A stretch of 64,000 bases of DNA. Origin: Macrocystis pyrifera. Its lineage: Eukaryota; Sar; Phaeophyceae; Laminariales; Laminariaceae. Shown one piece after another: positions 11,644-47,687 of the stretch. The notes under the pieces are model-generated. The model did no database searches and was not told the DNA's origin. It saw only the letters and a list, made by a program, of their open reading frames with translations. The stretch is from NCBI GenBank assembly GCA_031763025.1, contig JASSKH010000014.1:7262633-7326632 (forward strand), in the 5' to 3' direction. Every line of letters begins with the position of its first letter. Position 1 is the first letter of the stretch. The translations under genes and the position numbers were made by a program.

Positions 11644-12487
11644 GCCAAAATAAGGTATACCTGGCCACTTTCGTGCCAAAAAACGTTACATACTAAAATC
11701 AAGTACAAAACACACACCAGGAGCCCTGCTATTGGCCAAGCTGACATCGCAACTGATTTTGGCACGAAAAGGTCAAGGTACACCTGATTTTTTCTACTCT
11801 GTCTAGCTTTCAACTGATTTTGGCCAACTTTGAACCAATCAGAGAGGCCATACGTACACTGTGTTTTCTCTCCGTATGCGTCTGCCCTCCCTCGGTTGAA
11901 ATTCTTCTGTATTGACGTATAAAACTCTGTACTCGTACGTCGTACATAAAAGTACGTATTTACATGCATACATGCGTACGCTGGTTTCACTTTTTTTCCT
12001 TTGGGGTGTGCGATGTGCTTCATATTGTTGCCGTGTGTACTCTGTTGTTTTCTAAGTTCACAACAGTCTTTAAGCACCATGGACACTCGGCGTTTCGTCT
12101 GCACCACCTCGCGTCGAGGTGGTCTCAGGTTTGGTACGGCAAGAAAAGGAAGGCGGTTCCGCGAGGACGGTCTGGAAGCTTTTAAGCTGTCAACGGGGGG
12201 GGGGGCGCCAGAGTAAATACTCTTGGCCCTCCTGCCGTGGCGAAACAAACGAAGCATATTAATAGTGACTCTTTGCAGATCCAAGTGGAGCTCGTGGTAC
12301 CTACACCCTGAAGAAAACAAAACAATTCAGATTTTGGAGGCCATGTGGCACGCTTAATGCTTTAGGCGCGTTCTTTTTTTACCGGATTGTCATGGACATC
12401 ACACCGCTCGTGGCGCGCGTTTTTTACTTTTGGTTTTAACATGTACCTGAGTTTGGCTCAAACGGATCAGGTATACCTGATTTTGGC
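11644..12487 (-). mobile_element. MITE-like element, copy B, full length (844 bp)
   Basis: This is one of two apparently complete copies. The left end is GCCAAAATAAGGTATACCTG. The right end is CAGGTATACCTGATTTTGGC, which is the inverse complement of the family consensus GCCAAAATCAGGTATACCTG, so it has imperfect terminal inverted repeats of at least 20 bp. Further in, left GGCCACTTTCGTGCC pairs poorly with right GGCTCAAACGG, so symmetry ends there. No transposase is present. Orientation is inverse relative to copies A, C and D. The right end abuts the 121-bp satellite. Confidence 0.8.
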
Positions 12488-12502: not shown

Positions 12503-15500
12503 TACGTTCGTGTTTCGTGTTCCGTTCATCCGGGGAAGCGTGTGCCACAAGTTGGACCGTGTGCTATTGCAGTGCGTACGTCTGTTTCAGCGAAGCAAGT
12601 GTCACTCTTTGGCTCCCCGTCCGGGTTTTGTGTGCCGTTCGTCCGGGAATCTGGGCAAGCGTGTGCCACAAGTTGGACCGTGTGCTATTGCAGCGAGTAC
12701 GTCTGTTTCAGCAAAACAGGTGTCACTCTTTGGATCTCCGTCCGTGTTTCAAGTGCCGTTTAATCGGGAATCCGGGGACGCGTGTGCCACATGTTGGACC
12801 ATGTGCTTTTGAAGTGCGTACGTCTGCTTCAGCGGAGCAGGTGTCACTATTTTGCTCCCCGTCCGTGTTTCGTGTGCAGGTTATCCGTGAAGCATGTATC
12901 GTGCTTTTGCAGTGCGTACGTCTGTTTCAGCGAAGCAGGTGTCACTCTTTGGCTCACCGTCCGTGTTTCGGGTGCCGATCATCCGGGAATCCGGAAAAGC
13001 GTGTGCCACAAGTTTGACCGTGTGCGTTTACAGTGCGTAGGTCTGTTTCAGGGAAGCAGGTGTCACTCTTTGGTTCCCCGTCCGTGCTTTGTGTGCCGTT
13101 CATCCGGGAATCCGGTGAAGCGTGTGCCACAAGTTGGACCGCGTGCTATTACAATGCGTGCGTCTGTTTCAACGGAGCGGGTGTCACTCTTTGGCTCCTC
13201 GTCCGTGTTCCGGTTGCAGCTTATCGGGGAAGCATGCCTCCTTTGCTATTGCAGTGCGTACGTCTGATTCAGCGAAGCAGGTGTCACTCTTTGGCTCCCC
13301 GTCCGTCTTTAATGTTCGTTTTTCCTGGGAAGCGTGTGCCACAAGTTGGACCGTCTGCTATTGCAGCGCGTAGGTCTGATTCAGCGAAGCAGGTGTCACT
13401 CTTTTACTCCCCGCCCGTGTTTCGTGTGCCCTAATCCGGGGAAGCGTGTGCCACATGTTGTACCGTGTGCTTATGCAATGCTAACGTCTGATTCAGCGAA
13501 GCAGGTGTCACTCTTTTGCTCGCCGTCCGTGTTTTGTGTGCAGTTTATCCGGGAAGCATGCGTCCTTTGCTATTGCAGTGTGTACGTCTGTTTCAGCGAA
13601 GCAGGTATCAATCGTTGGCTTCCCGTCCGTGTTTCGTGTGACGCTCATCCGGAATCCAGTGGGAGCGGGTGCCACGTGTTTGACGCCGTGCTCTTGCAGT
13701 GCGTACGTCTGTTTCAGCGAAGCAGTTGTCACTCTTTGGCTCCCCGTCCGTGGTTCGTGGTTCGTTCATCCGGGCAAGCGTGTGCCACAGGTTGGACCGT
13801 GTGCGTTTGCAGTGCGAACGTCTGTTTCAGCGAAGCAGGTGTCAATCTTTGGCTCCCCGTCCTTGTTTCGTGTGGCGTTCATCCGGGGAAGCGCGTGCCA
13901 CAAGGTGGACCGTGTGCATTTGCAGTGCGTACGTCTGTTTAGCGAAGCAGGTGTCACTCGTTTGCTCCCCGTCCGTGTTTCGTGTGCAGGTTTCCCGGGA
14001 AGCGTGAGTCGTGTGCTATTGCAGTGCGTACGTCTGTTTCGGCGAAGCAGGTGTCACTCTTTTGCTCCCCGTCCGTGTTTCGTGTGCAGTTTATCTGGAA
14101 AGCATGTATCGTGTGCTATGACAGTGCGCACGTCTGTTTCAGCGAAGCAGGTGTCACTCGTTGGTTCCCCGTCCGTGCTATGTGTGCCGTTCATCCGGGA
14201 ATCCGGGGAAGCGTGTGCCACAAGCTGTATTACAGCGCGTACGTCTGTTTCAGCGGAACGGGTGTCACTCTTTGGCTCCCCGTCCGTGTTTCTGGTGCAG
14301 TTTATCCGGGAAGCATGCCTCCTTTGCTATTGCAGTGCGTACGTCTGTTTCAGCGAAGCAAAAATCACTCGTTGGCTTCCCGTTCGTGTTTCGTGTTCCG
14401 TTCATCCGGGGAAGCGTGTGCCAAAAGTTGGACCGTGTGCTATTGCAGCGCGTACGTCTGATTCAGCGAAGCAGGTGTCACTCTTTGCCTCCCCGTCCGT
14501 ACTTCCCGTTCCGTTGATCCGGGAATCCGGGGAGGCTTGTGCCACAATTTGGACCGTGTTGTATTTCAGCGCGTACGTCTGTTTCAGCGGAGCGGGTGTC
14601 ACTCTTTGGCTCCCCGTCCGTGGATCGTGCTCCGTTCATCCGGGGAAGCGTGTGCCACAAGGTGGACCGTGTGCTATTGCAGGGCGTACGTCTGTTTCAG
14701 CGAAGGAGGTGTCACTCTTTTGCTCCGCGTACGTGTTTTGTGTGCCGTTCACCCGGAAAACTGGGCAAGCGTGTGCCACAAGTTGGACCGTGTGCTATTG
14801 CAGCGCGTACGTCTGTTTCAACAAAACAGGTGTCACTCGTTGGCTCTCCGTCCGTGTTTCGGGTGCCGTTCATTCGGGAATCCGGGGAAGCGTGCGCAAC
14901 AAGTTGTTCCGTGTGCTTTTGCAGTGCGTACGTCTGTTTCAGCGAAGCAGGTGTCACTCTTTGGCTCCCCGTCCATGTTTTGTATGCCGTTCATCGGGGA
15001 ATCCGGGGAAGCGTGCGGTACAAGTTGGACCGTGTGCTATTGCCGCTCGTACGTCTGTTTCAGTAAAGCTGGTTTCACTCTTTGGCTCTCCGTCTGTGTT
15101 TGGGGTGCTGTTCATCCGGGAATTCGGAGAAGCGTGTGCCACAAGTTGAGGACCGTGTGCTTTTGCAGTGCGTACGTCTGTTGCAGCGAAGCAGGTGTCA
15201 CTCTTTGACTCCCCGTCCGTTTTTCGTGTGACGCTCATCCGGGGAAGCGTGTACCACAAGTTGGACCGTTTGCTTTTGCAGTGCGTACGTCTGTTTCAGC
15301 GAAGCAGGTGTCACTCTTTGGTTCCCCGTCCGTGTTTTGTGTGCTGTTCATCCGGAAATCCGGGCAAGCGCGTGCCGCATGTTGGACCGTAGTGCGCGCT
15401 TCTGTTTCAGCGAAGCAGGTGTCACTCTTTGGTTCCCCGTCCTTGATTCGTGTGCTGCCCATCCGGGGAAGCGCGTGCCACAAGTTGGACCGTGTGCTGT

Positions 15501-16000
15501 TGCGGTGCGTACGTCTGTTTCAGCGAAGCAGGTGTCACTCTTTTGCTCCCCGTCCGTGTTTCGTGTGCAGTTTTTCCGGGAAGCATGTGTCGTGTGCTAT
15601 TGCAGTGCGTACGTCTGTTTCAGCGAAGCAGGTGTCACTCTTTGGCTCACCGTCCGTGTTTCGGGTGCCGTTCTTCCGGGAATCCGGCGAAGCGTGTGCC
15701 ACAAGTTGGACCGTGTGCTATTGCAGTGCGTACGTCTGTTTCAGCGAGGGAGGTGTCACTCTTTGGCTCCCCGTACGTGTTTCGTGTGCTGTTCATCCGG
15801 GAAGCATGTGTCGTGTGCTTTTGCAGTGCGTACGTCTGTTTGGGTGCAGCAGGTGTCGCTCTTTAGCTCCCCGTCCGTGTTTCGTGTGCCGCTCATCCGG
15901 AGAATCATGTGTCACAAGTTGGACAGTGTGCTGATGCAGCATTTGCATCTGCTCCAGCGCCACGCGTTCATGTTTCGTGTGCGTTTGTCGTGTTTCTGGG
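12503..16000 (+). repeat. 121-bp satellite, about 31 units
   Basis: The unit starts are 12540, 12661 and 12782, a period of exactly 121. Shorter variants of about 95-110 bp lack part of the GGAATCCGGGGAAGCG segment, giving a mean near 116. The most conserved core is ACGTCTGTTTCAGCGAAGC. Since 121 leaves remainder 1 on division by 3, each frame cycles through all phases, and long stop-free stretches arise (for example 13536-15149, 537 codons without an ATG at its start). I do not treat these as genes. Related units reappear at 33629-33939, and degenerate ones continue in both copies of the segmental duplication. Confidence 0.9.
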
Positions 16001-16397
16001 GAAGCGTGTGCCACAAGTTGGACCGTGTGCTATGGTAGTGCGTACGTCTGTTTCAGCGAAGCAGGTGTCGCAACTCTTTGGCTCCCCCGTCCGTGTTTCG
16101 TGTGCCGTTCATCCGGGAAAGCATGCACGTTTCGTTAGCTGTTCATCCAGGGGAAGCTTTGCGCGATATGTTTGGTGACCTCCGCCGGCACACCGCGTAT
16201 CGCCGCCAAAGCGAATTGCGTCGGTTCTCGTTTCTTCGTCTGCGTAGCGCCCGTCCACAGGGGGGACGGTGTGCTGTCGCAGCGTGTGCGCCTGCTTCAG
16301 CGATGCAGGCGTCGCGGCTTGTTGGCGCCCTCGTCCGTGTTTCGTGTAGCGTTCATTCGCGGAAGATTTTGCTACAGATTGGACCGTGTCCTGTTGC

Positions 16398-16898
16398 TGT
16401 GATATGGGTGGAGTATTCATGGGCAATATATATAGATAATACGTTGCAGTCTTGTAGTCTCACGAATACGAGAATAATCCAAAGAATGGATTAACCTGGC
16501 AGATATTCCCTTAGTCGAGAGTAACGTTCTTTTAGGAATGTTCCCTAGGGCGGATAGCCCGTTAGACGAGAGTAATGTTCCTTGACGCAGATAGGACTAC
16601 GAAGTGAGAAGTTCTTATATTAGCAGACGAACGATCGGTAGCCATAGGAAAGTTCTGTAGGAGTACATCAGATAAGAGGAATTTAGGAGAGCTTGTGGCA
16701 TGGGGTGGGACGAGTATATCTGGGCGTCGAGTTCCGCCCCCCTACCTCTCACTTCTGTACCAGAGCACCTCCTCAGCTCTTGCCATCAATAAGAAGATCT
16801 AAATCAGAAGAAGCGAAGCACTGCTTTCCAGCTGCCAGAACCACCTGCGTCCCTTACCACTACCCTTACCACTACCCTAGAGCGGTCTCCGCATCACA
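16398..16898 (+). mobile_element. Solo LTR, copy 1 (501 bp)
   Basis: It begins TGTGATATGG and ends CGCATCACA. TGTGAT/ATCACA are perfect 6-bp terminal inverted repeats of the TG...CA class. TTGC directly flanks both sides as a 4-bp target duplication. The duplicated locus has the unoccupied site with a single TTGC at 34415-34418. A sequence-related element lies at 25636-26100. No internal retroelement domain adjoins, so it is a solo LTR. Copia or Gypsy affiliation cannot be decided. Confidence 0.9.
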
Positions 16899-17791
16899 TT
16901 GCAGTGTGTGGGTGTGCTTCAGCGCTGCTTTTTAGATATTTGCAGATGTCGCCACTCGTCGGCTTCCTCGTGCATGTTTTGTTTGCCGTTCGTCCGGGGA
17001 AGTATGTGTTACAAGTTGGACTGTGTGCCGTTGCAGTGTGTGCATCTGGTTCAGCGCCGCGCAGGCGTCGCTAATCGTCGACTTCCTCGCGCATGTCCGT
17101 GTGCCGTTCATCTTGGGGGGTTCTTCGCAACGCGTTTCGTGGTGTCCGTGGGTACACCGCGTATCTCGGCCGTCGCGGATTTCATGGGTACCTGTTTCTT
17201 CGTATGTGTAACAGCCGCCTAGAGGGGGGGACGGTGTGCCGTTGAAGTGTGTGCGTCTGCTTCAGCGAAGCATGTGTCGCATCTTGGTGTTTCCTCGTCC
17301 ACAGGGGGAGGCAGTGTCCTGTCGCAGTGTGTGCATCTGCTTCAGCGAAGCAAGTGTCACAAGTTGTTGATTTCGTCGCCCTTGTTTCGTGTGTCGTTCA
17401 CGTGGGGAAGTATGAGCCACACGTTGGTTTGTGTGCTGTTGCAGTGCGTGTGCGCAGCACCCGTTCATAGGCGAGGAAGGTGTGTTTTTTTTTTTCAGTC
17501 AGTCAGTGATTTTCTGTCCTGATTCGCGAGTATTCTTGGGCTATTTATTTCCCAGGTGGTGTTTCTTTTTTTTTTTCCACCTGGTTACTTTTTCCCCTTG
17601 TGTTCTGCGAGTTGGGCTGTTTATCCCGTCCGTGTGCGACGGACTGATGTTGACCTCAATCGCGAAACCGTTCAACTTGCAGCGCAGTGCAGCCCGCGTT
17701 GAGGTGTGGTTTCGTGAGTTGAAAGGTGACCTGCTTAGGAAAGGAACAGTTTCTACGTGTGTTCGGGTGTGGGTTCATTGCGCCGGTGGCG

Positions 17792-18794
17792 ATGCCACCT
17801 TCGCACGTTAGTGTGTATGTCTTGTTGCTACCTTTGTTTTTCCTCGCCGGACCCCTCGTTACGTGCTGCGTCTGCAGCGAGCGGCGGATGATCCATGTGG
17901 ACTCCGCTTCAACGGCCGAAAACCCAGCGACGAGTGGTTGCATTGGCGGGAGTGTGCGCACGGAGGAGTACCTCGGCACTCGGCACTCCCTGAGGATTGG
18001 AGGCGCAACGAACTCGTCGAAAGGGGGAGCTGTACCAGAGGGGTTGCTATTGATAATTATCCTTGCATGTGGCAGAGGCAAGCACTTCAATCGATGTTAA
18101 CCGACTGGTAAAGCATGAGCTTCGAGCTCGAAAGAGCTGATGATGAAAGCGATGGCACTCCAAGGCCTTGTCGTTGATTATTGCGGTCTCGCAGAGGAGA
18201 CAGGTGGGGAGAGAAGGAGAGTGAACAAGTGGGCGTGCAAACGCTCCTCTTGGCTGTTTCCGATCTTGACGATCTTCAACAGATACATAACAGATACATA
18301 TACCTCCTACGATGACGTCCGTCAGGTGATGACACACCCGAATCCGATTACGGCCTATGACAACGTTCGTCAGGTGATGACACACCCGTACCCGATTACG
18401 GTCTATGACAACGTTCGTCAGGTGGTGACACACTCAAAATCGATCTATTATGGATCCCTTGTACTGTATACTACCAGATATTCCGTGGTATCCAGTGACG
18501 ACAAAATGATAGCTACTGTCAAGTAACATCTCCAATAGACTAGCTATGTCCCGACAGCGAACCGATAGGCTACTGACTACTGTTATTGTTGTTGTGTAGC
18601 AACTGACTACTGCCAACGCTGCTGTTGGGTAACAACGTAGCTATCTTTAATAGTTGCAGCCCGGCGGTCGATGGACGTGTTTCGCCACGGGGCAGGACAC
18701 CGTCTGGATAGCAAACGGAATGGCCCAGGAGGGTCGTGACAATGGGATCCCGCCGGACCTGGGTGGGCGCGGGTTGATCCACCTAATGATTTAG
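17792..18794 (+). pseudogene. Signal-peptide ORF, copy 1, split by a 605-bp insertion
   Basis: It is collinear with the intact 130-codon frame at 35306-35698: 256 nt precede the insertion junction and 137 nt follow it, exactly as in copy 2. The insertion 18048-18652 lies after codon 85. Substitutions against copy 2 include Arg/Ser near residue 7, Leu/Ile near 32, Thr/Asn near 42 and Pro/Leu near 65. Without splicing of the insertion the protein would be truncated. Whether either copy is expressed is unknown. Confidence 0.4.
18048..18652 (+). mobile_element. 605-bp insertion with 5-bp target duplication
   Basis: GTTGC flanks both ends (18043-18047 and 18653-18657), and copy 2 of the duplication has a single GTTGC at 35557-35561. 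The insert begins TATTGATAATTATCC and ends CTATCTTTAATA, so only TATT/AATA are inverted. Inside are three 48-bp tandem units (about 18308-18435) containing 'CGTTCGTCAGGTGATGACAC'. The 5-bp duplication and the TTG-rich right part suit a solo LTR of another family, but the ends are not TG...CA. No coding domain is seen. Confidence 0.75.
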
Positions 18795-19389
18795 ACAGGC
18801 AGACGTGGCCAAATGTATATTCCGGTCATGCAGCGTGTCCGTGTGTGCCAAGTGAAAAGAGTATGGAGGAGTTGGGTTATCATGCGCGTTCCCCATACGA
18901 TATAGCAACAAGGGGGGGGAGGGCGCTAGCATGGGTTCGTTAATCGGGTCAATCCCATTTGTTGGAGGCTGGCGTCGAGGGTTAGACATTGCCAGTTGGG
19001 ATGGAAGTTGACTCGAGTTTACGGATGCTATTAGTAGGGTGGGGTTGCTGTTGGAGCAGCCTGAGGGGCTTGCCCTTCTCTCCGCCCCCCTTGTCTCCGA
19101 GCGGGGGGGGTGCGCAATAATATGATACAGCTTCGAAAGCAAAGTGCAAAGCATAGTATTATCGAGACACGAGTAAATGCGAGTTTTACACGTACGGAAG
19201 AAGTTTGGGCAACCAATCAGATCAACGCGGGTTAATAAGTGTACGTAACAATTGGACAGGCTTGAGACACACCTCGCCTAGTTCGTATAGTCACTGACCA
19301 GCGAGCTAAACACGTTGTCAAATAGGGTCAGAGCTGCAAGAAGAGTAAAGGTGTGACACAGATTAGTTTGAGTTCCCACCCACCCGCCC

Positions 19390-20829
<1,440 letters not shown>

Positions 20830-21779
20830 ATTATTAATAATATTATATTATTATTTGAATCTTCATTCTTCATACCTCCACGCGCAATATCTGACACAGC
20901 CACCAGCTCGCCACCACACGTGCTGCTGCACTGCTGCTGTTGTTGTTGTTGTGGTTGTGGTGTTGTTGTTTTTTCTTCATATTTGAACCGTTCTTTCTAC
21001 CCGTCGACATCCAGCACAACCAGTGTCCTTGCCGATTCTTCAATCCTAGAGAGATACAAGTTCTGAGGTCACAAAGCTACGCCACAGAGATACTACGTTG
21101 CCACGTATGTATGCAATGCAATGCAATCATGTCATCATACTGCGTACGACAGACGCGACATGCACACTCCATGACCTAAACGAAACAAAGACAGAAAAAA
21201 ACAAAAAAAAAGAAGACAATTCGAAAGAGAAAAGAAACAATATATATATACCAGGTATATAACAACAAACCATCGTGCCCCCCCTGCAGGGGATCTGGCA
21301 GACACTTGAAAAGAACGACTGCACACACAAACAAACACAGACCACTTATCTCACGTCTACGTTGCATCAGATTATTGGGGGTGTGGCCGGTACGGCCGCC
21401 ATGAATACCTATCTCACCGGGCGGGGTCGACCGACCAGCAGCGGCACTTAGTCCAGCATCACCACCACCACCTCCACCTCCACAACCACCAACAACACAG
21501 CGCAACAGCACAACCATCAGAACAGCCACCAACCGGCGCCGCAACTGTTAGTTCTCGGGGCAGGGGCTGGGAAGGAGTTAAAATAAGATAGTTGTCGCCC
21601 GTGTGGCAACACTTATCGGAGTTTGAGCCGCCTGTCGGAAAAAAACGTCCAGTCCACGGTGGTCATAGAGCTACCTGCTTCGGGACGGCTCCCTGCGCGC
21701 AACCAGCAGTGCAGTGGGGGAAACTTTTCACGTACAACCCCGCTGACCTTGAAGGGGGAAATAGCAAAAAAAACAATTA
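20830..21779. other. Intergenic with a dispersed repeat copy (20995-21340)
   Basis: No gene is supported. The block 'AGAGAGATACAAG...GCCACAG.GATACTAC' followed by 'GCAATGC...ACGACA' recurs in the same order at 50600-50712 and 51570-51760, where an insertion separates the halves. CAC/ACC-rich sequence lies at 21450-21510. Confidence 0.5.
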
Positions 21780-22955: not shown

Positions 22956-22991
22956 CGGTTCACACAAAAAAACCCATATATTTTCGCAAAT

Positions 22992-23560
22992 GCCAATATC
23001 AGGCACCTGATCCGTTTGAGCCAAAATAAGGTACATACTAAAACCAAGTAAAAAACGCGCGCCACAAGCGATGTGATGTCCATGACAATCCGGTAAAAAA
23101 AATAATGCGCCTAAAGCACTAAGCGTGCCACATGGCTTCCAAAATCTGAATAGTTTCGTTTTCTTCAGGGTGTAGGTACCACGGGCTCCACTTCGTCCTG
23201 CAGAGAGCCACTATTAACATGCTTCGTTTGTTTCGCCATGGCGGGAGCGCCAAGAGTTTTTACTCTGGCGCCCCCCCCCGTTGACCGCTTTAAAGCTTCC
23301 AGACCGTCCTCGCGGAACCGCCTGTTCGGCACGAAATTATCTTGCCGTACGAAACCTGAGACCACCTCGACGCGGGGTGGTGCAGACGAAATGCCGTGTG
23401 GCCATGGTGCTGTGAAGACTGCTGTGAACATGGAAAACAATAGAGTACACACAACAACTAACTGAAGCACATATCGCACACCCCAAAGGAGAAAAAGTGA
23501 AACCAGCGTACGCATGTATGTATGTATGTAAATGTATATAAAGAGAAGTCTTGTTTTAAT
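22992..23560 (+). mobile_element. MITE-like element, copy C, left half
   Basis: It begins GCCAATATCAGGCACCTG and runs collinear with copies A and D through 'GAGACCACCTCGACGCGGGG' and 'GAGAAAAAGTGAAACCAGCG'. The homology breaks at about 23560 near TATATAAAGAG, and its right part is found at 27001-27462. The C tract here is 9 bases (compare 29 in copy A). Confidence 0.75.
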
Positions 23561-24704: not shown

Positions 24705-25635
24705 ATTGATTTATATTAATAATTGTCAATACACTTGATTTCGGCTATTGCCCATTAACTGAAATTGGCCAGGCAATTGTTTTCGGCGATTGTCTATGAA
24801 GGAATGGTCCAGGCAATTGATTTCGACTACCATCTACTAGTTGGAATTGTGTGAGCAACAGGTTTCGAGTGTTGTTGTCTATGAATTGGAATTGTCCAAA
24901 CAATTGGTTGCGGAGACTGCCAATTAATTGGAATCATTCAGCAAATTAATTTCGGGTGCCAATAATTGGAATTGTCCAGACAAATGATTTCGGGTGTTGT
25001 CCACTAACTGAAATTTTCTTCAGACAATTGATTTCGGGAGCTGTCTATTAATTGGATTTGTCTGAACATTTGATTTCGGCTGCTGTGCTTATTAACTGAA
25101 ATTGTCCGCACAATTGATTTTGAGCGCTGTCAAATAAATGAATGAAATTGTCCAAACGGACTTCGGCGACTGGAAAATAGTTGGAACTGTCCGCACAATT
25201 CATTTCAGATGCCGCTCAAGAAATCAATTGCTCGATAAATGTCATGGCGGTGTACCTACAGCAGTCGTTATTGTATTGTGATAGGCACTCCCCATTGAAT
25301 TGATACTACTTGTAATATGCCACAATAAAGGACCTTTTGCAAATGATTGCGTATTGAGGGAAGTTCCCGATTCTGTTGTAGAGGCAATACCAGCATGGTG
25401 GTACTGTTGTGTACTGATCAAATCAAATGCAGTTCTATACAAGTAGCTGCCACGTTGCAAATAACAGAGCCCTCTTAAACTCGACAGTCATGACAATTCC
25501 AATTAGTAGATCGCTTCCGAATCCCATTGTCCCGACAATTCCAATTAATTGACGGTATCTGAAAGCAGTTGCCCCGACAAGTCCACTTCATGTACATCAC
25601 CCGAAATCAATCGTTCAAGCAATTCCAATTAATAG

Positions 25636-26100
25636 TGTGATATGAGTAGAGTATTCATGGGCTATAGATATAGATAATACGTTGCAGTCTTGTAGTTCCA
25701 CGAATACGAGAATATTCCAAAGAATGGATTAACCCGGCGGATATTCCGTTAGTCGAGAGTATCGTTATTTTAGGAATGTTCCGTGATGCAGATAGGACTA
25801 CGAAGTGAGAAGTTCTTATATTAGCAGAAGAACGATCGGTAGCCATTAGGAAAGTTCTGTTGGAGTACATCAGATAGGAGGAATTTAGGAGAGTTTGTGG
25901 CGTGGGGTGGGACGAGTATATTTGGGCGTCGAGTCCCGCCCCCCTACCTCTCACTTCTCTACCAGAGCACCTCCTCAGCTCTCGCCATCAATAAGAAGAT
26001 CTAAAACAGAAGAAGCGAAGCACTGCTTTCCAGCTGCCAGAACAACCTGCGTCCCTTGCCACTACCCTTACCACTACCCTAGAGCGGTCACCGCATCACA
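25636..26100 (+). mobile_element. Solo LTR, copy 2 (465 bp)
   Basis: It is collinear with 16398-16898 apart from one deletion of about 35 bp. It begins TGTGATATGAG and ends CGCATCACA. ATAG flanks both sides, again a 4-bp target duplication. It is inserted in the inverted array of the foldback-like element, so it is younger than that array. Confidence 0.9.
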
Positions 26101-26498
26101 ATAGACAGCCTGTGAAATCATTTGCCAGCAGAATTTCAATCGATAGGCAGTCTCCGAGCTCATTTGTCTGGACAAGTCCAAATATTGAAAAACACAAAAC
26201 CCAATTGTTCAGACAATTCCAATTAATCGACAGTCTCTGAAATCAATTGTCAGGGCAACTTCAATTGATAATGAGTCTCCAATTTTTTTTTGTCCGGACA
26301 ATTCCAATTGTTAAACAGTGCCCGATGTCAATTGTCCGAATAAATCCAATTGTTAGACAGTATCCAAGATCAATTGCCTAAACAATTTCAATTGCTAGAC
26401 AGTCTATGACATCACTTGCCTGGACAATTCCAATTAATAGACAACTTCGTGACTCTGCTGTAGGAGCAATAGCCTATTGATAGGTCTATTGTCCAAGG

Positions 26499-27000
26499 CA
26501 TAATAAGCAGAAAAAGGCGGGACACTTCAACGTTAGCTTTGTATTTTACGTCCGCAGGTAGGAAGTTTTGATTCCGCTTAGCCCATGTGCTCAGATGTAA
26601 ATCATTAAAAAAAGTTTTCACGAAACAAAGCAATCCGTATGCACTGTTGTTTTGAAATGCACGGGCAGTTAATTTTGGAGACTGCCCACCAATGATGGCA
26701 TTGTCTGAAGTAGTTTTGGAGATTTCATATAAGTCGAAATTGTCGGGATTATTTATTTTGTATACCGTCTATTATTTGGAATTGCCCGAACAATTGATTT
26801 CAAAAGCAGTCTGCCAATTGAAATTGTCCGGACAATTGATTTTGGAGACTATGCATAAAATTGGAATTGTCGGGACAATTGATCTGGGAGACTGTCTATT
26901 AATTGGAGTTGTCGGGACAAACACTTTTGGCGTCAGTCTACTAATTGAAATTGTCCAGACAACTTCTCAATATATCATACATACGTACTTTTACGTACGA
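26499..27000. repeat. Unassigned spacer and forward unit array fragment
   Basis: 26499-26640 is unassigned. From about 26640 to 26970 forward CAATTGATTTTGGAGACTG-type units resume, a partial second array of the foldback family. The junction with the MITE right half carries a duplicated GTACGACGTACGAGTACAG block (also at 27165-27183). Confidence 0.5.
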
Positions 27001-27462
27001 CGTACGAGTACAGAGTTTATCGTGTGGCCATGGTGCTGTAAAGACTGCTGTGAACATAGAAAACAATAGAGTATACACAACAACTAACTGAAGCACATCG
27101 CACACCCCGAAGGAGAAAAAGTGAAACCAGCGTACGCATGTATGCATGTATATACGTACTTTTACGTACGACGTACGAGTACAGAGGTTATACGTCAATA
27201 CAGAAGAATTTCAACCGAGTGAGGCAGACGCATACGGAGAGAAACGCAGTGTACGTATGGCCTCTCTGATTGGTTCAAAGTTGGCCAAAATCAGTTAAAA
27301 GCTAGACAGAGTAGAAAAAATCAGATATACCTTGGCTTTTTCGAGCTAAAATCAGTTACGATGTCAGCCAGGCCAATAGCAGGGCTCCAGGGGTGTGTTT
27401 TGTACTTGTTTTTAGCATGTAACTGATTTTGGCCGAAAAGTGGCCAGGTATACCTGATTTTG
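27001..27462 (+). mobile_element. MITE-like element, copy C, right half
   Basis: It continues copy C from 'GTGTGGCCATGGTGCTGT' through 'CCTCTCTGATTGGTTCAAA' to the terminal GTGGCCAGGTATACCTGATTTTG. It overlaps the left half by about 100 bp, so the split involved a duplication or rearrangement, not a simple clean insertion. Confidence 0.7.
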
Positions 27463-33572: not shown

Positions 33573-33939
33573 ATGTCGACATGGCCTCCAAAATCTGAAC
33601 AGTGTTGTGTTCTTTAGGGTGTAGGTTTCAGCGAAGCAGGTGTCACTCTTTGGCTCCCCGTCCGTGTTTCGTGTGCCGTTCATCCGAGGATCCGGGGAAG
33701 CGTGTGCCACAAGTTTGGACCGTGTGCTATTGCAGTGCGTACGTCTGTTTCAGCGAAGCAGGTGTCACTCTTTGGGTCCCCGTCTGTGTTGCGTGTGTCG
33801 TTCACCCGGAAACCGGGGAAGCGTGTGCCACAAGTTGGACCGTGTGCTATTGCGGTGCGTACCTCTGTTTCAGCGAAGCAGGTGTCACTTGTTAGCTCCC
33901 CATCCATGTTTCGTGTGCCGTTCATCCCGGAATCCGGGG
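33573..33939 (+). repeat. MITE fragment joined to 121-bp satellite units
   Basis: 33573-33627 (TGGCCTCCAAAATCTGAAC...TTAGGGTGTAGG) is an internal piece of the MITE family. It is fused directly to three satellite units in the same orientation as at 12.5-16 kb. The satellite thus adjoins a MITE copy at both of its locations. Confidence 0.75.
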
Positions 33940-36288
33940 GAGCGTGTGCCACAAGTTGGACCGTGTGCTATGGTAGTGCGTACGTCTGTTTCAGCGAAGC
34001 AGGTGTCGCAACTCTTTGGCTCCCGCGTCCATGTTTCGTGTGCCGTTCATCCGGGGAAGCATGTGGCATAAGTTGGGCTGTGTGTTCTTGCAAAATGTGC
34101 ATCTGCTCCAGCGCTACAGGTGTCGCTACTCGTCGGCTTCCTTGTGCATGTTTCGTTAGCTGTTCATCCGGCGGGAGTTTTTCGCGATATGTTTGGTGAC
34201 CTCCGCGGGCACACCGCGTATCGCCGCCAAAGCGAGTTCGTCGGTTCTCGTTTCTTCGTCTGCGTAGCACCCGTCCACAGGGGGGACGGTGTGCTGTCGC
34301 AGCGTGTGCGCCTGCATCAGCGATGCAAGTGTCGCGTTTTTTTTGGTTCCGTCGTCCGTGTTTCGTGTGGTGTTCATTCGCGGAAGCGTTTGCCACAGGT
34401 TGGACCGTGTGCTGTTGCAGTGTGTGAGTGTGCTTCAGCGCTGCATGTCAGATATTTGCAGATGTCGCACGCAACTCGTCGGCTTCCTCGTGCATGTTTT
34501 GTTTGTCGTTCGTCCGGGGAAGCATATGTTACACGTTGGACTGTGTGCCGTTGCAGTGTGCGTCTGGTTTAGCGCCGCGCAGGTGTCGCTAATCGTCGGC
34601 TTCCTCGCGCATGTCCGTGTGCCGTTCATCTTGGGGGGTTCTTCGCATGGCGTTTCGTGGTGTCCGTGGGTACACCGCGTATCTCGGCCGTCGCGGATTT
34701 CATGGGTACCTGTTTGTTCGTATGCGTAACAGCCGCCTAGAGGGGGGGGCGATGTGCTGTTGCAGTGTGTGCGTCTGCTTCAGCGAATCATGTGTCGCAT
34801 CTTGGTGTTTCCTCGTCCACAGGGAGAGGCAGTGTCCCGTTGCCGTGTGTGCATCTGCTTCAGCGAAGCAAGTGTCACAAGTTGTTGACTTCGTCGCCCT
34901 TGTTTCGTGTGTCGTTCATGTGGGGAAGTATGAGCCACACGTTGGTTTGTGTGCTGTTGCAGTGCGTGTGCGCAGCACCCGTTCATAGGCGGGGAAGGTG
35001 TGTTTTTTTTCAGTCAGTCAGTGATTTTCTGTCCTGATTCGCGAGTACTCTTGGGCTATTTATTTCCCAGGTGGTGTTTCTTTTTTTTTTCCACCTGGTT
35101 ACTTTTTCCCCTTGTGTTTTGCGAGTTGGGCTGTTTATCCCGTCCGTGTGCGACGGACTGATGTTGACCTCAATCGCGAAACCGTTCAACTTGCAGCGCA
35201 GTGCAGCCCGCGTTGAGGTGTGGTTTCGTGAGTTGAAAGGTGACCTGCTTAGGAAAGGAACATTTACTACGTGTGTTCGGGTGTGGGTTCATTGCGCCGG
35301 TGGCGATGCCACCTTCGCACGTTCGCGTGTATGTCTTGTTGCTACCTTTGTTTTTCCTCGCCGGACCCCTCGTTACGTGCTGCGTCTGCAGCGAGCGGCG
35401 GATGCTCCATGTGGACTCCGCTTCAACGGCCGAAACCCCAGCGACGAGTGGTTGCATTGGCGGGAGTGTGCGCACGGAGGAGTACCTCGGCACTCGGCAC
35501 TCCCCGAGGATTGGAGGCGCAACGAACTCGTCGAAAGGGGGAGCTGTACCAGAGGGGTTGCAGCCCGGCGGTCGATGGACGTGTTTCGCCACGGGGCAGG
35601 ACGCCATCTGGATAGCAAACGGAATGGCCCAGGAGGGTCGTGACAATGGGATCCCGCCGGACCTGGGCGGGCGCGGGTTGATCCACCTAATGATTTAGAC
35701 AGGCAGACGTGGCCAAATGTATATTCCGGTCATGCAGCGTGTCCGTGTGTGCCAAGTGAAAAGAGTATGGAGGAGTTGGGTTATCATGCGCGTTCCTCAT
35801 ACGATATAGCAACAAGGGGGGGGAGGGCGCTAGCATGGGTTCGTTAATCGAGTCAATCCCATTTGTTGGAGGCTGGCGTCGAGGGTTAGACATTGCCAGT
35901 TGGGATGGAAGTTGACTCGAGTTTACGGATGCTAGCGTGGGGTTGCTGTTGGAGCAGCCTGAGGGGCTTGCCCTTCTCTCCGCCCCCCTTGTCTCCGAGC
36001 GGGGGGGTGTGCGCAATAATATGATACAGCTTCGAAAGCAAAGTGCAAAGCATAGTATTATCGAGACACGAGTAAATGCGAGTTTTACACGTACGGAAGA
36101 AGTTTTGGCAACCAATCAGATCAACGCGGGTTAATAAGTGTACGTAACAATTGGACAGGCTTGAGACACACCTCGCCTAGTTCGTATAGTTACTGACCAG
36201 CGAGCTAAACACGTTGTCAAATAGGGTCAGAGCTGCAAGAAGAGTAAAGGTGTGACACAGATTAGTTTGAGTTCCCACCCACCCGCCC
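33940..36288 (+). repeat. Segmental duplication, copy 2
   Basis: It is the partner of 16001-19389. It lacks the solo LTR and the 605-bp insertion and keeps both unoccupied target sites (34415-34418 TTGC, 35557-35561 GTTGC). Homology stops at 36288, where copy 1 enters the microsatellite. The left part is degenerate satellite, the middle holds a 130-codon frame, and the right part is non-coding. Confidence 0.9.
35306..35698 (+). CDS. Hypothetical 130-residue protein with signal-peptide-like start
   Basis: The ATG at 35306 is followed by a few polar residues, a hydrophobic core (V-Y-V-L-L-L-P-L-F-F-L-A-G-P-L-V) and a Cys-rich boundary (C-C-V-C-S), as in a secretory signal. The mature part is Gly/Ser/Thr-rich and ends in a less biased segment (W-T-C-F-A-T-G-Q-D-A-I-W-I-A-N-G-M) before the stop at 35698. 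I recognise no family. A copy without indels lies at 17792-18794 but is split by an insertion. Other frames of this G/C-rich region are also open, so coding is not proven. Confidence 0.35.
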   Translation: MPPSHVRVYVLLLPLFFLAGPLVTCCVCSERRMLHVDSASTAETPATSGCIGGSVRTEEYLGTRHSPRIGGATNSSKGGAVPEGLQPGGRWTCFATGQDAIWIANGMAQEGRDNGIPPDLGGRGLIHLMI

Positions 36289-37344
36289 GAGCTTTTGAGG
36301 GAGTCAGTGGAGGGAAGTTGAACGGTCGCAGCAACGTTGTGATGTGTTTGTTGTTGCTGTTTGTTTGACGTACCTGGTGGATGCTGTGTACGCGTCCGGG
36401 TGTCCTAGGGTGCGCAGGTTTGCGGTGGTGGCTAGCCGCGTTTGGTATTTTGGTTATGATGCACGGCATGCCGCGTCATTGTGGCGTAGATAATGGATAC
36501 GTGTATCTCTCCTTGGTGTGGGAGTGCGTCACGACAAGAAAATCACGATTCACGACAAAAAATCTCACGAATCGTGATTTGTTTTGTTCGTTAAGAGTGG
36601 CGCTTACCCCAGAACAAACAAAATCGCGATTCGTGACATGTGTCGTGTCTCAAAATACGCCTGATCAAGCCACCACGTAACCCACGCGTACCAACGGTAT
36701 CCGAAGGTCGGTATAAGAGCATGGCAGACTCTGCTTCGTACGCCGCTTGTAGACAACGGGCGGCTACCTGAAGACACCGCTGAGCGCGGGCTAACGAGGA
36801 GGTTTTGGCCTCGAAATTTCGAGGAGGAGGAGCCACTGCTGGAACACAAACGCGAAAATGACCTGAGGATGTCACAGGCCAGGCCGGGCAGACGGCCTGC
36901 GACATGGAATCTCGCGAACCGAGCTTGGCCGACGGTCGGTATGAAGTTGGAATCTCACAGTCTGGGTCAGGCTTCGGCCCGTGATTCGAAAATATCACGG
37001 GCTGGCTCAGGTGCGGACGGCCCAGCCCGGCGTGGCCGTGCCCCACTCTCGAGAGTTGGCTCCACCCCCAAAAAAACATTGGATTTGAAAATATCGGAAT
37101 TTTAACTATTTGAAAATATCACGAAACGCGACGTTTTTCGGCTTTTTTCGTTAGAACGGAGGGCCGGTCCTATCGGGGGGAAAAAAACCGGGAAAAAAAA
37201 AAAAACGAAATAAAACGAACATACTTTTGTTTTTCGTAAGAAACACCAGGTTGATTTCTATAACGAGAAAAAAAATAAGGAAAAAAGGCGAAACAAAAAG
37301 AAGAAGTATACCGAGTCGAATTTTTACGCCGTGCAATTTTCAGA
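36289..37344. other. Intergenic; CACGATTCACGA palindromic motifs
   Basis: 36535-36640 carries repeated ATCACGATTCACGAC and inverse GAATCGTGATT motifs, and 36990-37130 carries AAATATCACGGGC/AAATATCACGAAA. A poly-A stretch with mixed A runs follows (37190-37320). No gene is supported. Confidence 0.5.
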
Positions 37345-46824: not shown

Positions 46825-47687
46825 GCCAAAATCAGGTATAATACCTGGTCCTTTTGGCCCCAATCGAGTGAATCCTAAAACCAAGTAATAAAAGCGCGCC
46901 GCGAGCGGTGTTTTGTACGTGAAAATCCGCGGGAAAAAAAAATGCGCCCGAATGTTGAGGGTGTGTTTCTCCAAAATCTGAATTGTTTTGTTGTGTTTAG
47001 AGTACCACTCGCTCCACTTGGGCCTTCCAAGAGGGTCAACAGGCTTCGTTTGTTTCGCCACGGCGAGAGCGCCAAGAGTATATACCCCCCAGTCCCCCGT
47101 TACCAGCTTTAAACTTCTCGACCATCCTCACGGAACCGCCTGCTCGGCACTAAATAGTTTTTTAGTATCAAACCTGAGACCACCTCGACGCGGGGTGGGG
47201 CAGACGCGAGCTGCCGTGTGTCCATGGCGGTGCTGCAATTTGGCTCCTGTGACCATAGCAACTAACAACAGCAGAGCACAGCATCACAACAACTGAAGCA
47301 CATCGTACACCCCAAATACGAAAATGTGAGATGAGCATACGTATGTATGCATAAAAACGTGTGTATATACGTATACGTACGAGTAAAGAGCTTGTATACA
47401 AGAATTGCAACCGAGGAACCGAGTGACCCCAGACGATAAAAGCGGAGAAAAAACAGTGTATGTGTATGGCCTCTCTGTTGAGTTCAAAATTCACCAAAAC
47501 CAGTTAAATGCTAGACGGAGAAGACAAAATCAGGTATATCTGGCCTTTTCCAGTCAAGATCATGATTCAGGTGCGATGTCTGGCCAATAACAGGGGTCCT
47601 TACGTATGCTTTGCACTTGTTTTTAGTGCGTAGTAGCTGATTTTGGCCCAAACGTGGCCAGGTATTACACCTGTATCAGGATGTGGC
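46825..47687 (+). mobile_element. MITE-like element, copy D, full length (863 bp)
   Basis: It begins GCCAAAATCAGGTATAATAC, and the right end runs GTGGCCAGGTATTACACCTG...GGATGTGGC. It is collinear with copy B over its full length (inverse) and with the halves of A and C. The family's internal poly-C site is reduced to 'CCCCCCAGTCCCCC'. There is no coding domain. It confirms the ~850-bp length of the unbroken element. Confidence 0.8.

Follow-up and report, generated by a model that had tools for sequence, protein, structure and literature searches.

Two neighbouring copies of a dispersed repeat in a kelp genome, one carrying two solo LTRs and the other their empty target sites

Background

Two stretches of a giant kelp window (by which we mean the whole 64-kb stretch of DNA that was analysed) resemble each other closely and share their orientation at a distance of about 18 kb, and one of them holds two insertions at places where the other has single, uninterrupted target sites. 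An earlier note on this DNA had read the pair as a segmental duplication of about 98% identity, against which both insertions could be dated. The question is whether the two copies are a duplication at all, and what the pair can say about the order of events. We arrive, with a probability of roughly 0.65, at the reading that copies 1 and 2 are two old, neighbouring, truncated members of a dispersed family, that their right parts were recently homogenised, and that two LTR elements inserted independently into copy 1 and became solo LTRs.

The genome searched comprises 223 contigs with a total of 537,376,219 bases, the largest of about 26 Mb. We infer that it is the giant kelp assembly described in passages of PMC10498591 (537 Mb, 35 scaffolds and 188 contigs, PacBio reads from a haploid female gametophyte). 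Coordinates of the main features are collected in Table 1.

Table 1. Features of the two copies and of the LTRs in the window (positions are those of the window)
Feature	Position	Strand	Remarks
Copy 1	12505..19389	+	Truncated, array-expanded member of dispersed split-direct-repeat family; two later insertions
Expanded tandem array, internal part (X) of host family	12505..16125	+	TRF periods about 98-121 bp
501-bp solo LTR, TRIM-like family	16398..16898	+	TG..CA ends; TSD TTGC
Maximum-likelihood change point	17327 (copy 1)		Left 7.3%, right 1.4% different from copy 2
605-bp solo LTR, gag-bearing pol-less Copia-type family	18048..18652	-	TATT..AATA; TSD GTTGC
Repeat B1, copy 1	18966..19150	+	Split direct repeat
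Repeat A2, copy 1	19148..19375	+	Overlaps B1 at AAA
Second LTR of 501-bp family	25636..26100	+	465 bp, internal deletion; TSD ATAG; outside both copies
Copy 2	33625..36529	+	Truncated member of dispersed split-direct-repeat family; both insertion sites empty
Empty 501-bp-LTR site, copy 2	34415..34418	+	Single TTGC
Empty 605-bp-LTR site, copy 2	35557..35561	+	Single GTTGC
Repeat B1, copy 2	35870..36049	+	180 bp
Repeat A2, copy 2	36047..36274	+	228 bp

Results and discussion

Two insertions in copy 1 and their empty sites

Alignment of positions 16121-19389 with 34142-36288 yields 2141 aligned sites, of which 74 are mismatched, and eight small gaps; the two large gaps, of 505 and 610 bases, each equal the insert plus one copy of its target site. 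Both inserts with their flanking TTGC and GTTGC in copy 1, and the single TTGC and GTTGC in copy 2, were found as the earlier note had described them. The 501-bp insert is, as that note said, a solo LTR, and so is the 605-bp insert: each consists of a single LTR with its own target-site duplication (TSD) and without an internal region. Copy 2 also contains an 83-bp stretch (34062-34144) that is absent from copy 1, and the initial 120 bp or so of copy 1 as first delimited (from 16001) turn out to be the final unit of a tandem array that begins near 12505.

Other members of the family to which the copies belong provide natural empty-site controls. The 605-bp site is empty in all 20 of those examined. 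The 501-bp site is empty in 4/4 strictly anchored members, and 17 of 20 members align across it without an insert, although the units there are repeated and some of these alignments may involve a different unit. The empty sites in relatives indicate that both insertions are gains in copy 1 rather than losses in copy 2, so that the before-and-after reading first proposed for the pair stands on firmer ground than the pair alone gave it.

The copies are members of a dispersed split-direct-repeat family

The sequence shared by the two copies is not confined to them. For the right flank (18653-19389), 40 places were scored among 881 candidates across the genome; among these, copy 2 matches at 98%, the next full-length match reaches 93%, and the best of the partial ones, 420 bases long, reaches 95%. 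Reading outward in seven members, we obtained the layout A1-X-B1A2-C-B2, in which A1 (228 bp) forms the left end and is followed by an interior with tandem units (X), B1 (180 bp) abuts A2, with which it overlaps at AAA, and a spacer (C) leads to B2, the right terminus. A1, B1, A2 and B2 all occur in 4/7 loci (complete in L048, L049 and L050, and in L047 with the final 31 bp of B2 missing), and L045, L046 and L051 have a partial set. In the five members whose length was measured it ranges over 3.7-5.9 kb; two of these are cut at the right end. The interior array has expanded in copy 1, where we counted 33 unit anchors; copy 2 has 8, and five further copies have 4-17 each.

Both copies in the window are truncated, given that neither reaches B2 and that the left 1.2 kb or so of the L045 element, beyond its A repeat, has no match in the window. 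Homology of copy 2 to dispersed loci runs beyond 36288, to 36526-36529, in seven of the eight loci compared, the sole exception being L052, where it ends at 36295; five of these loci extend up to about 610 bases further. Beyond the borders of the copies, comparison of 3.5-3.7 kb per side revealed no flank homology save an inverted MITE-like piece of 46-48 bp, which at 33579-33626 (48 bp) abuts the left border of copy 2. The shared sequence being a dispersed repeat, the pair a mosaic (see below) and this piece the only thing that the compared flanks have in common, "segmental duplication" is not the best term for the pair. Provided that a good share of these 881 candidates are genuine copies, it would by rough estimate be unremarkable for two members to lie within 18 kb of each other in 537 Mb.

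Several other repeats lie near the copies. A MITE-like element, whose terminal repeats as judged by eye follow the type GCCAAAATMAGGTATACCTG, occupies 11647-12487 and has relatives at about 1429-1913, 22988-23526, 27021-27462 and 46825-47665. To the right of copy 1, the stretch 19390-20855 has ATT-rich tracts on both sides (about 365 units in the second one) of a block of about 300 bp (19449-19753) that contains GGTTCGACC; if this is a B-box, as we assume it may be, the block could be SINE-like. Directly after copy 2, the translation of 36530-37120 resembles, by eye, an extra stretch within L032, a copy of the gag-bearing element described below, and this stretch is probably another mobile element.

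The search for coding capacity was negative. For the copies no Pfam family scored above its cut-off (we ignored weak matches to MBD, E 0.1, and Nyv1_longin, E 0.026), three ORFs from other copies were without a Pfam match, and neither a reverse transcriptase nor a tyrosine recombinase was recognised for the element; in the genome, PF00589 (tyrosine recombinase) had no match at E<=0.001 with all 125 of 125 candidates scored. Since no enzyme was recognised, we call the family PAT/Ngaro-like in layout and apparently non-autonomous, and do not file it as a coding member of that group. Elements of PAT/Ngaro type are not known to make a target-site duplication. We saw no flank repeats at the ends of L048 and L050; a possible 8-bp repeat at L049 would, if real, count against a tyrosine-recombinase element, which should make none. 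Elsewhere in the window, an exon-like ORF at 57749-58543 matches SMP-30/gluconolactonase (PF08450, E 3.7e-9).

The pair has a mosaic history

Divergence between the copies is far from uniform. Left of copy-1 position 17327 they differ at 51 of 695 sites (7.3%) and right of it at 20 of 1443 (1.4%), a partition that improves the log-likelihood by 23.8; the 98% identity claimed for the pair is thus accurate for the right block and does not hold for the left. Between either copy and the rest of the family, mean distances are 6.4-10.4% on the left (a thin comparison, with 3-5 other members) and 5.5-11.6% on the right (17-20 others), with no comparable step. In the left block the two copies are as far from each other as from other members. 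In a right-block tree of ten sequences they group together with a support of 1.000 at a distance of 1.3%, and the eight other members are 6.1-9.4% apart on short inner branches. Copy 2 is nearer to L045 (6.1%) than to copy 1 (9.2%) over 16124-16397, and over 16899-17484 the copies are slightly closest to each other (5.0%, as against 6.7-8.4% to L045 or L052).

We therefore propose that copies 1 and 2 parted when the family spread, its members now being about 6-9% apart, and that a recent local exchange, which most likely would have been gene conversion, later made the right part of one like that of the other (17327 to at least 19389, some 1.4 kb if the insert is left out). The host element itself may have been integrated by a tyrosine recombinase. 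A TRIM-like element with a 501-bp LTR and a gag-bearing, pol-less Copia-type element with a 605-bp LTR would have inserted independently into copy 1, their mobilisation perhaps aided by autonomous partners, and each would have been reduced to a solo LTR by LTR-LTR recombination.

The main alternative, a credible if unlikely one, is that a single member was duplicated locally and that one copy subsequently had its left half replaced, either through exchange with a further member or through array turnover. Such a duplication would account for the common orientation and the distance of about 18 kb, and for the right block, which makes the copies each other's closest relatives by a wide margin; the 5.0% over 16899-17484 likewise favours shared descent in that segment and speaks against our preferred reading. 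However, a second event is needed to explain the 7.3% of the left block, the compared flanks share no sequence outside the element other than the short inverted MITE-like piece, and the right ends are unequal (19389 and 36529). A simple segmental duplication whose left part merely evolved faster is largely refuted and in our view highly improbable: the degenerate tandem units do lie in the left part, but the distances to other members show no step where the distance between the copies falls from 7.3% to 1.4%, even if the left-hand comparison involves 3-5 members. Least probable of all is an assembly artefact in which two haplotypes or alleles were wrongly put into one contig, given that the presumed source is a haploid gametophyte, that the window contains no N characters, that the flanks of the two copies are unrelated except for the MITE-like piece, and that the left block has diverged as much as unrelated family members have.

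The 501-bp LTR belongs to a TRIM-like family

Scoring 40 of 2321 candidate places gave 46 further near-full-length matches to the 501-bp LTR, and relatives in which the LTRs flank an internal region are among them. In six loci the LTRs lie 177 to 320 bp apart. At C198 (L003, L007 and L008) three LTRs alternate with two internal regions in a chain LTR-222-LTR-222-LTR with TATC at both outer flanks, which suggests unequal exchange within an element. The two internals at L003 are identical and, at 222 bp with a primer binding site, have the short internal region that characterises a TRIM. The internal region starts with TCTGGCGTCGTCGGCA, and a 14-nt part of this is the complement of the kelp tRNA-Ser(AGA) 3' end with its CCA. 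A pattern for that tRNA end was matched 34 times; of four pattern loci scanned with ARAGORN, one yielded a call of the tRNA. At L005 the primer site is followed by a different, longer sequence, and at L036 an extra stretch of 472 bp lies beside a truncated LTR. The TSD is an exact 4-bp repeat in eight of the nine insertions whose outer flanks are both visible; in the ninth the repeat is 5 bp long.

The second LTR of this family in the window has a TSD of its own (ATAG) and hence did not form a pair with the 501-bp LTR of copy 1. It is flanked by arrays of 42-43-bp units, in opposite orientations on its two sides (24721-26962).

The 605-bp LTR belongs to a gag-bearing family in which no pol was seen

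For the 605-bp LTR, 40 matches were scored including itself, each covering at least positions 4-603. Seven direct LTR pairs were fetched, with internal regions of 2.0-3.5 kb; the two LTRs of a pair differ at 5 to 15 of about 600 aligned bases (0.8-2.5%). With solo LTRs included, TSDs are exact 5-bp repeats in 12 of 16 insertions, have one mismatch in three and are missing in one. The insert was also considered as a DNA transposon, a candidate that we dropped, as a search for terminal inverted repeats found none beyond what shuffled sequences show.

The internal region, on the minus strand of the window, starts with GGTTATGAGCCTCG immediately after the LTR, and its primer site has 14 nt complementary to the anticodon arm of a kelp tRNA-Met, which we take to be the initiator tRNA. 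(The pattern used for tRNA-Met had four matches, three of which are one type of tRNA-Met.) Half-tRNA primers of this kind are used by copia and Ty5. An ORF of 365-366 aa matches Retrotran_gag_2, the copia-type gag, in both of the two ORFs tested, with scores of 26 bits (E 7e-6) and 27.3 bits (E 2.9e-6) that lie on either side of the curated cut-off of 27. No pol was seen among the four further ORFs (85-125 aa) of L029, which were searched against Pfam and had no match.

The two insertions may differ in date

The 605-bp LTR lies within the 1.4% block, where the sequences to its left and right match copy 2 about equally well (9 differences in 551 sites and 8 in 731). Taken together, these observations make it most likely that the element arrived after the exchange, unless the latter skipped the LTR. 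The LTR pairs of its family, at 0.8-2.5%, fall in the range of the 1.4% block. The earlier proposal to place the insertion after a duplication is arguable for this LTR. It does not extend to the 501-bp LTR, which lies in the 7% block and can be said only to postdate the separation of the two members. One shared date for both insertions does not follow.

Significance

The elements and processes at this locus are of known, well-documented kinds, and the pair is a before-and-after example of ordinary genome turnover, in which one copy was hit twice and the other was not. It offers two insertions with clean polarity and adds a description of three kelp element families that appear to be non-autonomous; our search for literature on solo LTR retrotransposons in brown algae found no paper. 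The locus also illustrates that a pair of repeat copies with a mosaic history may mimic a segmental duplication, and that dating insertions from such a pair requires block-wise comparison with further members of the family. More broadly, and tentatively, we suggest that kelp genomes might harbour a large non-autonomous split-direct-repeat family of the tyrosine-recombinase type with a minisatellite body, in which neighbours convert each other and arrays expand, and which could seed satellite DNA. If so, this minisatellite-bodied family would keep a natural record of how a haploid-diploid alga recombines.

Comparison with known elements

In layout, the host family resembles the PAT and Ngaro retrotransposons of the DIRS order, for which passages of PMC4157794 and PMC8547959 give split direct repeats arranged A1-[internal]-B1A2-B2 with B1 abutting A2; Ngaro and PAT-like families are among those that PMC12477816 reports from the brown alga Ectocarpus. 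The kelp family differs from them in that no reverse transcriptase or recombinase was found for it and in that its interior is largely a tandem array.

The 501-bp family is like a TRIM in having direct LTRs around short internals and in its tandem LTR-internal chain. It is unlike a TRIM in its LTR, 501 bp being long for such an element, and in the longer sequence at L005 and the 472-bp stretch at L036. A tandem arrangement is also described for maize Wukong.

Lastly, the 605-bp family can be likened, by description only, to the gag-only Copia elements (TR-GAG; Copia-N1_Ec32 and Copia-11_Ec32 of Ectocarpus), with which it shares an LTR pair, a 5-bp TSD and one gag ORF with no pol seen, and passages of PMC12477816 report Ectocarpus Copia families that have just one ORF, resembling gag. 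It differs from them in its TA..TA termini and in a primer site that matches 14 nt of the anticodon arm of tRNA-Met.
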